A DNA stretch of 64,000 bases from assembly GCA_028820635.1 (NCBI GenBank), contig JAPPIG010000118.1, positions 62,001 to 126,000 of the forward strand. The letters run 5' to 3'. Source of the DNA: Candidatus Poribacteria bacterium. Lineage in GTDB: Bacteria; Poribacteria; WGA-4E; WGA-3G. Under the pieces are notes generated by a model, which saw nothing but the letters and a program-made list of their open reading frames with translations, ran no database searches and was not told where the DNA came from. Shown in pieces: positions 52,399 to 53,861 of the stretch. The position numbers and the translations under genes are program-made. Within the stretch, counting starts at the first letter, position 1. Every line of letters begins with the position of its first letter.

Positions 52399-52683
52399 TT
52401 AGGTCTCCTTAAAATACTTGGCTAATTCCATATTAGATATTATAGCATTAGTTGTTTAAAAAGACAACCGCAAACTTAACAATGATCGTATAAAGTTTTC
52501 GTCTTCGCTTGTGTTCTAACAATAGATGTCAATTCCTTGTATAATTTAAGTTGCCAAATAGATTTACAAAAAAATCCTCCCTGTTTTAAGGGAGGAAAGA
52601 TGGGATTATTTAAGAAAATTAACGTTAAAAATCAACGTTAATGAGAAATTATTAATTTTTTTCAAAAAAACTTAACTTTTTCC

Positions 52684-52712
52684 TTGACAACTTTTTTCAC
52701 ATTTTGTATAAT
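52684..52712 (+). promoter_or_regulatory. sigma70-type promoter, leader copy A
   Basis: TTGACA, 17-nt spacer, TATAAT: full consensus. Confidence 0.85.
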
Positions 52713-52717
52713 AATTT

Positions 52718-52885
52718 ACGTTCAATGGTAGTCTCCTATAATGTTTATAGGTGCGCCGACGGTGTTACGACCACCGATCGACGCGGCGCTGCCATAATCC
52801 GACTATAGCAACGCTAACCTAATTGTAGCATTAAACTATCTGTTTGTGTAGCATTTAGGTTAGCACCTTACATGAAAAAGGAGAA
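52718..52885 (+). ncRNA. candidate structured 5' leader RNA, copy A
   Basis: Near-identical to copy B; stems ATGGTAG/CTGCCAT, CCTATAA/TTATAGG, CGGTG/CACCG, GCTAACCTAA/TTAGGTTAGC. Confidence 0.7.
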
Positions 52886-52890
52886 CTTCA

Positions 52891-53409
52891 ATGAAACAGT
52901 GTAAGTTGCCTATCCTTACCGTATTCCTCGGTATTTTCATCTTATTTACAACAAGTCAAACAGTTTATGCACAAAATGCAGAACAGTTACGTGCAAAAAT
53001 TGATGCCTTAGAAAGCAGACTCGCCAAGTTGCATGCTGAGGAGATACAACTTGAAATAGATTTAGGCAACGCAGAGGTCAACTTAGCAAGTGCTTCTGCA
53101 ACCCTTGACAGTGCAAGATATTGGCTTTCGGAAGCTGAAAAAGAGCTAACGCGAGCTATACTTGACCTTGAAAATGCTCTAAACGGAAACGACGCAGCCG
53201 CAATTGAGGACGCAAGGTTTTGGAAAGCCTATTGGGAAAGTGTTGTTGTCGATTTAACTGATTATTTGGACGAGGTGATTGCCGAACATCAAGAAGCGGC
53301 AGATCACCTTCTTTCTGTACAACAGAAAATGAGTGTAAATGCGAAAAATATCAAGTCTGTTGTGCGTGAGCTTAATCAAGCACGAGAAGCGTTAGCGGCA
53401 CTGAATTAG
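52891..53409 (+). CDS. secreted coiled-coil protein (172 aa)
   Basis: Signal peptide ending 'TVYAQNAEQL' and heptad-rich 'AKIDALESRLAKLHAEEIQLEIDL'; RBS AAGGAG. Confidence 0.8.
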   Translation: MKQCKLPILTVFLGIFILFTTSQTVYAQNAEQLRAKIDALESRLAKLHAEEIQLEIDLGNAEVNLASASATLDSARYWLSEAEKELTRAILDLENALNGNDAAAIEDARFWKAYWESVVVDLTDYLDEVIAEHQEAADHLLSVQQKMSVNAKNIKSVVRELNQAREALAALN

Positions 53410-53484
53410 ACGCATCTAATTCAGTAATTTTACCAAATTTACCTTCGTAATGTTGATGGTAAATTGTTCATTTTTATTACAACC

Positions 53485-53631
53485 TATCTCATAAATAGTT
53501 GGAGGGCTTTGAAAGCCCGATTTCAAAATCTTGTAGGAGCGATCTCCGAATCGCGACAGGTCGGGAATCGGAGTTCCCTCCTACAAAGAGAAACAACTCA
53601 TAATGAACCAACAAATCCTATTTATGAGATA
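53485..53631. repeat. MITE-like element, 147 bp
   Basis: Perfect 14-bp terminal inverted repeats TATCTCATAAATAG (53485-53498) / CTATTTATGAGATA (53618-53631) enclosing GTTGGAGGGC and GTAGGAGCGATCTCC palindromes. Confidence 0.8.
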
Positions 53632-53656
53632 CGCTCAAGAAAAACTTAAGTTTTTC

Positions 53657-53685
53657 TTGACAACTGTATGTTTGTTTTTTATAAT
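53657..53685 (+). promoter_or_regulatory. sigma70-type promoter, leader copy B
   Basis: TTGACA, 17-nt spacer, TATAAT: full consensus. Confidence 0.85.
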
Positions 53686-53690
53686 AATTT

Positions 53691-53856
53691 ACGTTCATGG
53701 TAGTCTCCTATAATGTTTATAGGGAGCGTCGACGGTGTTACGACCACTGATCGACGCGGCACTGCCATAATCCGACTATAGCAGTGCTAACCTAATTGCA
53801 ACATGAAACCATCTGTTTTGTGTGACTTTTAGGTTAGCACCTTACAAAGGAGATTT
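53691..53856 (+). ncRNA. candidate structured 5' leader RNA, copy B
   Basis: Same stems as copy A with compatible changes (CGGTG/CACTG; GCGTCGA/TCGACGC; GTGCTAACCTAA/TTAGGTTAGCAC). Confidence 0.7.
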
Positions 53857-53861
53857 TAACG

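Follow-up and report, generated by a model that had tools for sequence, protein, structure and literature searches.

Two near-identical blocks of about 200 bases, lying in a 64,000-nucleotide stretch of a Candidatus Poribacteria genome (hereafter the window), each carry one copy of a 5′ leader, and the conclusion that this leader belongs to a structured RNA family new to Rfam 15 and found in one Poribacteria family alone is well supported by sequence comparison. An earlier note on this DNA had reported two blocks, each starting with TTGACA-N17-TATAAT and ending at a Shine-Dalgarno (SD) sequence and an ATG. Both blocks, A and B, were present where the note had placed them, with a promoter at the start and AGGAG and an ATG at the end (Table 1). 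The two copies share three repeats, of 96 nt (90% identity), 27 nt (100%) and 30 nt (90%). Compared with dinucleotide shuffles, leaders A and B had folding z-scores of −5.0 and −7.2, and none of the 200 shuffles folded equally well. A chance origin of the blocks is excluded because homologues exist.

Table 1. Features of leaders A and B and of the genes behind them (positions in the window)
Feature	Position	Strand	Observation
Promoter of leader A	52684..52712	+	TTGACA-N17-TATAAT, 12/12 consensus match
Leader RNA copy A, model R1 positions 1-149	52726..52873	+	136.8 bits with R1
Copy A P1′ 5′ strand UCUCCU	52732..52737	+	predicted pairing with SD 52879-52884, probabilities 0.63-0.97
Copy A helix P2 (CCUAUAA/UUAUAGG)	52735..52751	+	covariation in alignments A2 and A5
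Copy A helix P3 (GCGCCGACGGUG/CACCGAUCGACGC)	52753..52784	+	double changes in 6/12 pairs
Copy A centre strand CUGCCAUA and P4 partner UAUAGCAA	52789..52811	+	P4 covaries
Copy A helix P5 (GCUAACCUAA/UUAGGUUAGC)	52813..52864	+	covariation
Copy A SD AGGAGA = P1′ 3′ strand	52879..52884	+	sequence reading, pair probabilities
ORF A, 172 aa	52891..53409	+	N-terminal hydrophobic segment, then coiled coil; predicted exported
Promoter of leader B	53657..53685	+	TTGACA-N17-TATAAT, 12/12 consensus match
Leader RNA copy B, model R1 positions 1-149	53698..53847	+	140.7 bits with R1
Copy B P1′ 5′ strand UCUCCU	53704..53709	+	predicted pairing with SD 53848-53853, probabilities 0.89-0.98
Copy B helix P2	53707..53723	+	repeat comparison with copy A, covariation
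Copy B helix P3 (GCGUCGACGGUG/CACUGAUCGACGC)	53726..53757	+	covariation
Copy B centre strand CUGCCAUA and P4 partner UAUAGCAG	53762..53784	+	covariation; two near-isoenergetic folds
Copy B helix P5 (GUGCUAACCUAA/UUAGGUUAGCAC)	53784..53840	+	repeat comparison, folding, covariation
Copy B SD AGGAGA = P1′ 3′ strand	53848..53853	+	pair probabilities
ORF B, 299 aa	53862..54761	+	secreted coiled-coil protein (predicted); paralogues behind other leader copies in the genome

A scan of the region gave 13 promoter-like matches, against 5.9 expected from shuffles, and the sole 12/12 sites were those of leaders A and B. Judged by their sequence, these are perfect sigma-70-type promoters, from which the leaders are presumably transcribed. 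A further promoter-like site (10/12) at 52516-52545, 5′ of leader A, is followed by a small hairpin, TCCTCCCTGTTTTAAGGGAGGA, with no obvious ORF behind it in the stretch 52516-52640. A uniform promoter position across the copies was rejected, as 43% of the high-scoring copies reach at least 9/12 promoter matches (16% in shuffles); on reading the sequences, the start of some copies seems to lie about 25–50 nt farther upstream and to include an additional 5′ hairpin. Such a hairpin, P0, lies directly before class II, III and IV leaders (e.g., L220, L223 and L228), often with CACG...CGTG inside, and is absent from the window copies. In addition, a near-perfect palindrome, TGTAAAGTCGTGTAGACTTTACA, occurs 5′ of five class III leaders (L228, L230, L231, L233 and L235) and could be a transcription-factor site common to the class III leader genes.

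The distribution of the leader was determined with BLASTN, covariance-model and pattern searches. A BLASTN search with copy B detected a third copy in the window genome, as well as about 60 places distributed over 23 of 60 relatives, all of them members of the same family. Thirty-eight class I copies went into the covariance model R1, which matched 53 of the 59 genomes of one Poribacteria family, with about 290 matches at E ≤ 1e-3 (summed from a table; E-values are rough owing to short calibration), and had no match in the other families searched, whether of the same order or from elsewhere in the phylum. The model R2, built from 32 divergent class II copies only and including the closing helix, matched 55 of the 59 genomes, with 294 matches at E ≤ 1e-6 (summed), 16 of them in the window genome, and at weaker thresholds also matched two further genomes (G008 and G082). 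Only genus g3 (two genomes) had no match by either model within the family, and the 26 genomes of nine other Poribacteria families gave zero matches. The class II-only model recovered class I copies, both window copies among them: copy A, which lies outside the R2 training set, at E = 3.1e-17 and copy B at E = 4.5e-15. An IUPAC pattern searched against 84,980 species found 56 stretches, 55 of which are labelled Poribacteria; the remaining match, in Lachnospiraceae (L178), is likely a chance occurrence, about 0.5 chance matches being expected by estimate. The pattern had no match in IMG/VR, and viral carriage was therefore rejected.

Known RNA families were likewise rejected. Rfam 15 gave 0 matches in the window at the gathering score, and permissive E-value searches of the window and nine loci covering all four subclasses returned only weak, unrelated matches below that score. 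Among the papers listed in a literature search, none dealt with a Poribacteria RNA. The proposal in the earlier note of a new structured leader class is thus borne out by the lack of an Rfam match, by further copies before secreted genes and by compensatory changes; homologues and covariation, whose absence the note had named as contrary evidence, were both found, and the blocks did not prove to be a transposon end or an unstructured duplication. Since none of the 26 genomes sampled from other Poribacteria families contains the RNA, it is a possible marker of a lifestyle-linked regulon. Sponge-associated Entoporibacteria have been set apart from free-living Pelagiporibacteria (PMC8546597), and record names indicate, although only suggestively, that the family carrying the RNA is largely host-associated.

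The consensus fold comprises, in order, P2, P3, P4 and P5, closed by P1′, with a small P5b added in class II. With the reservation that redundancy among related genomes inflates covariation counts and tests, the class I alignment showed pairing in 92% of cells, as opposed to 30–47% after the partners were slid, and changes on both sides in 15 of 40 pairs, a number reached by none of 500 shuffles (mean 5.8). In the class II alignment, 96.8% of cells pair and 11 of 42 pairs have changes on both sides (0/500 shuffles). When 10,296 column pairs were ranked by an average-product-corrected G statistic, the top 100 included 11 of the 40 model pairs, against 0.4 expected. Strong covariation of P2–P5 in two independently built alignments is thus well supported at the sequence level. 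Direct reading of the copies showed that P4 is kept through CAUA/UAUG, CAUU/AAUG, CAAA/UUUG and CACA/UGUG, and as CAGA/UCUG in class IV. P5 consists of wholly different sequences in class I and class II and is a long hairpin in both. Many homologues back three of the stems proposed in the note: CCTATAA/TTATAGG, the arm GCGYCGA..TCGACGC and the long stem at the end. The remaining stem, ATGGTAG/CTGCCAT, fared less well: the strands are complementary in nearly all copies, but the stem has no double changes and competes with two better-supported helices.

Two side observations concern the helices. The tip of P3 is a 5-bp stem with a 7-nt loop, with U at position 2 in 37 of 48 and A at position 6 in 39 of 48, and this terminal loop resembles an anticodon loop; a tRNA or anticodon-arm mimic was rejected, as ARAGORN calls no tRNA. 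In a relative, the leader L072 (G004:C135, 4342-4489, minus strand), which precedes a homologue of ORF A, carries, ahead of the SD, a second, tandem copy of the P5 hairpin together with the 3′ strand of P4.

The closing helix P1′ pairs the 5′ end of the RNA (GGCAGCYUC and variants) with the stretch 3′ of P5. Among all copies after redundancy reduction (n = 64), cognate strands paired more stably than swapped strands (−13.1 vs −11.6 kcal/mol, p = 2e-4). The same test gave p = 8e-4 in class I alone and p = 0.013 in class II alone, and was not significant for redundancy-reduced class I copies with GGAUUGCC only (p = 0.13). Rescued pairing occurs, for example, in L061 (GGGGAG with UUUCCC) and in class IV (UAGAGGUGCU with AGCAGCCUCUA), both read from the sequence, as well as in L154 (GGCAGCG with CGUUGCC) and in the third copy of the window genome (UUGGUAGUCUCCUA with AAGGAAGUGCUACCAC). 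The SD of the window copies lies within the 3′ strand of P1′, so the closed fold should block translation; the start codon is mostly paired too in the predicted ensemble. The occlusion of the SD by CCTT/AAGG pairing, suggested earlier, was rejected, since the predicted ensemble pairs the SD with the 5′ terminal UCUCCU instead. The SD of the class II copies L145, L146 and L149 (GGAG) likewise lies within the P1′ strand. In most g2 copies, the SD lies tens of nucleotides past P1′, indicating that direct SD masking is not universal.

Both strands of P1′ have alternative partners. In class I copies with the gene further downstream, the 3′ strand can form a hairpin, P6 (GGAUUGCC...GGCAAUCC), for which the comparison of cognate and swapped strands gave p = 6e-4 in class I, with rescues in, e.g., L045, L056 and L120. 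The same comparison gave no support in class II (p = 0.99), and P6 as a universal platform was rejected. The centre strand, CUGCC(A), can pair either with UAUGACAG to form P4 or with the 5′ GGYAG that P1′ uses; in copy A the latter partner is UGGUAG at 52726-52731. Because the centre is shared by P4 and the GGYAG pairing, and GGYAG is used by P1′, the alternative folds are mutually exclusive on paper. In the open state, the centre pairs with the 5′ end; the strands of this helix, P1 (UGGYAG:CUGCCA), are complementary in 97% of cells, with zero double changes. As it lacks such changes and competes with the covarying P4, P1 was rejected as the main closing stem. In the model, the two states of copy B differ by 0.4 kcal/mol (−64.5 vs −64.1 kcal/mol), and the gap ranges from 0.4 to 6.7 kcal/mol over the tested copies. 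The SD is more exposed in the state with the centre paired to GGYAG in all tested copies, yet often still mostly paired. This modelled comparison is suggestive of switching, not decisive.

A candidate ORF with an SD-like site lies downstream of 98 of the 114 distinct copies. Most of these ORFs encode short proteins that begin with a hydrophobic segment, so that predicted exported or membrane proteins predominate: by simple ORF and hydrophobicity tests, this segment was present in 31 of 35 non-redundant ORFs behind high-scoring copies and in 77 of 182 other ORFs of the same loci (42%; p = 2e-7). Most leader-associated ORFs searched lack a Pfam family, apart from a weak T2SSC match and a weak metallopeptidase match. 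In the window, ORF A has no Pfam family above the cut-off and ORF B no Pfam match. The earlier note had described the two genes as not looking homologous. BLAST finds no match between them, but ORF B is one of a family of secreted coiled-coil paralogues that are likewise encoded behind leader copies. Five class III leaders in the window genome, 92–97% identical to each other, precede secreted coiled-coil proteins, four of which have 20–27% identity to ORF B. The leader is therefore far more conserved than the proteins behind it. The proteins of ORF B, L231, L233, L235 and L048, otherwise diverged, share a similar motif in the C-terminal region (NPIPE or EANPPP), which may reflect either remote homology or a possible sorting tail.

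The leader is also found before restriction-modification genes. In class II, 14 loci in 13 genomes precede a DNA methylase about 135 nt downstream (N6_N4_Mtase in one representative), and in the window genome a class II leader precedes an HSDR_N/N6_Mtase protein. The single cell-surface cluster envisaged in the earlier note thus gives way to about 16 copies across the genome, DNA methyltransferase genes included. Near-identical leaders of one group (L017, L023, L074, L080 and L083), from several genomes, have no convincing ORF with an SD close downstream; their genes may have decayed or be very small, or the RNA may be a separate one.

That the leader is a small RNA of its own, which just happens to be situated upstream of these genes, is very improbable. 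This reading would account for the leader's own promoter and for the copies without a clear ORF near by, but in the window the SD and start codon directly follow the last stem, the plus strand has no terminator-like site between P5 and either gene, and the association with the type of gene is highly non-random. Even less probability, close to none, attaches to the end of a mobile element, a MITE or a recent duplication of promoter DNA without RNA function. Such an origin would fit the many dispersed copies and the near-identity of the class III leaders in the window genome; it is largely refuted by the compensatory changes across diverged copies, and the homology between the two window copies runs from promoter to SD and shows no terminal repeats. 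Moreover, the copies are oriented non-randomly toward one kind of gene and matched no viral contigs. Judging by the translations of the neighbouring ORFs, one product is aminotransferase-like and another acetyltransferase-like, so that nothing in the surroundings points to a mobile element. Between ORF A and leader B (53526-53590) lies a 65-nt imperfect palindrome (TTGTAGGAG...CTCCTACAA). It is a repeat in its own right, dispersed through the genome in at least 40 copies, and looks like a REP/MITE-type element.

Taken together, these features make it probable that the leader is a cis-acting, orphan riboswitch-like element with its own promoter, in which mutually exclusive helices would hide or expose the SD. 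We infer both the switching and its direction as follows. Where the gene directly follows the leader, as in the window copies and others, the 3′ strand of P1′ holds the SD and the closed fold would block translation; in class I copies with the gene further downstream, the same strand could form P6 instead. A putative effector, which may be a small molecule, a protein or temperature, would shift the balance between the folds and thereby co-ordinate the dispersed genes for exported proteins and restriction-modification. As in riboswitches, a conserved structured domain lies upstream of a coding region; as for exclusive helices, P1′ overlaps the SD in the window copies, P6 is supported in class I only and the open state lacks covariation, and the SD is not clearly freed in the modelled open state. 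A transcription attenuator found no counterpart in the sequence, as no terminator-like site was present on the plus strand between P5 and either window ORF, nor a U-run after P6 in the homologues read.

Alternatively, the leader might not switch and might instead be a constant protective, localising or protein-binding element on the mRNAs of exported proteins. The strong tie to predicted exported proteins and the very stable P3 and P5 fit a stabiliser or address tag of this kind. We nevertheless regard it as unlikely: the overlap of the closing helix with the SD in the window copies, and the strand that this helix shares with a second covarying hairpin in class I, would both be needless in a passive element, and the products of the methyltransferase genes are not exported. 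Going beyond the switching leader itself, we tentatively suggest, as a possibility short of an even chance, a lineage-specific orphan riboswitch through which a metabolite or second messenger would switch a whole set of genes for surface proteins (many of them diversified coiled-coil proteins) and restriction-modification, forming a symbiosis-linked RNA regulon.

Little is known of gene regulation in uncultured Poribacteria. The leader defines a gene set in one lineage whose members are possibly controlled jointly; their products are largely predicted to be exported and match Pfam weakly or not at all. As the leader is conserved while the proteins diverge, it also provides a handle for fast-diverging surface proteins that homology searches miss.

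Among known systems, cyclic-di-GMP (GEMM) riboswitches occur in many copies per genome before unrelated genes, mostly for extracellular or membrane proteins. The leader resembles them in its many copies, its exported-type genes and a multi-helix domain whose closing helix is tied to expression; it differs in its helices and has no sequence or Rfam covariance-model match to them, and we do not claim membership of that family. Translational riboswitches bury the SD in one of several mutually exclusive helices, as is predicted for the leader. Unlike these riboswitches, the leader is confined to one bacterial family, and both its open state and its ligand are putative. In RNA thermometers such as ROSE elements, the SD pairs with upstream leader sequence; the same pairing is predicted here, although the leader has a large conserved core beyond the needs of SD masking and no Rfam match. 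Finally, while the leader differs from the orphan structured RNA motifs of comparative genomics (e.g., PMC2864571) in being absent from Rfam 15 and in coming from a lineage with little prior RNA work, it is like them in having been found by covariation and in lying upstream of genes.
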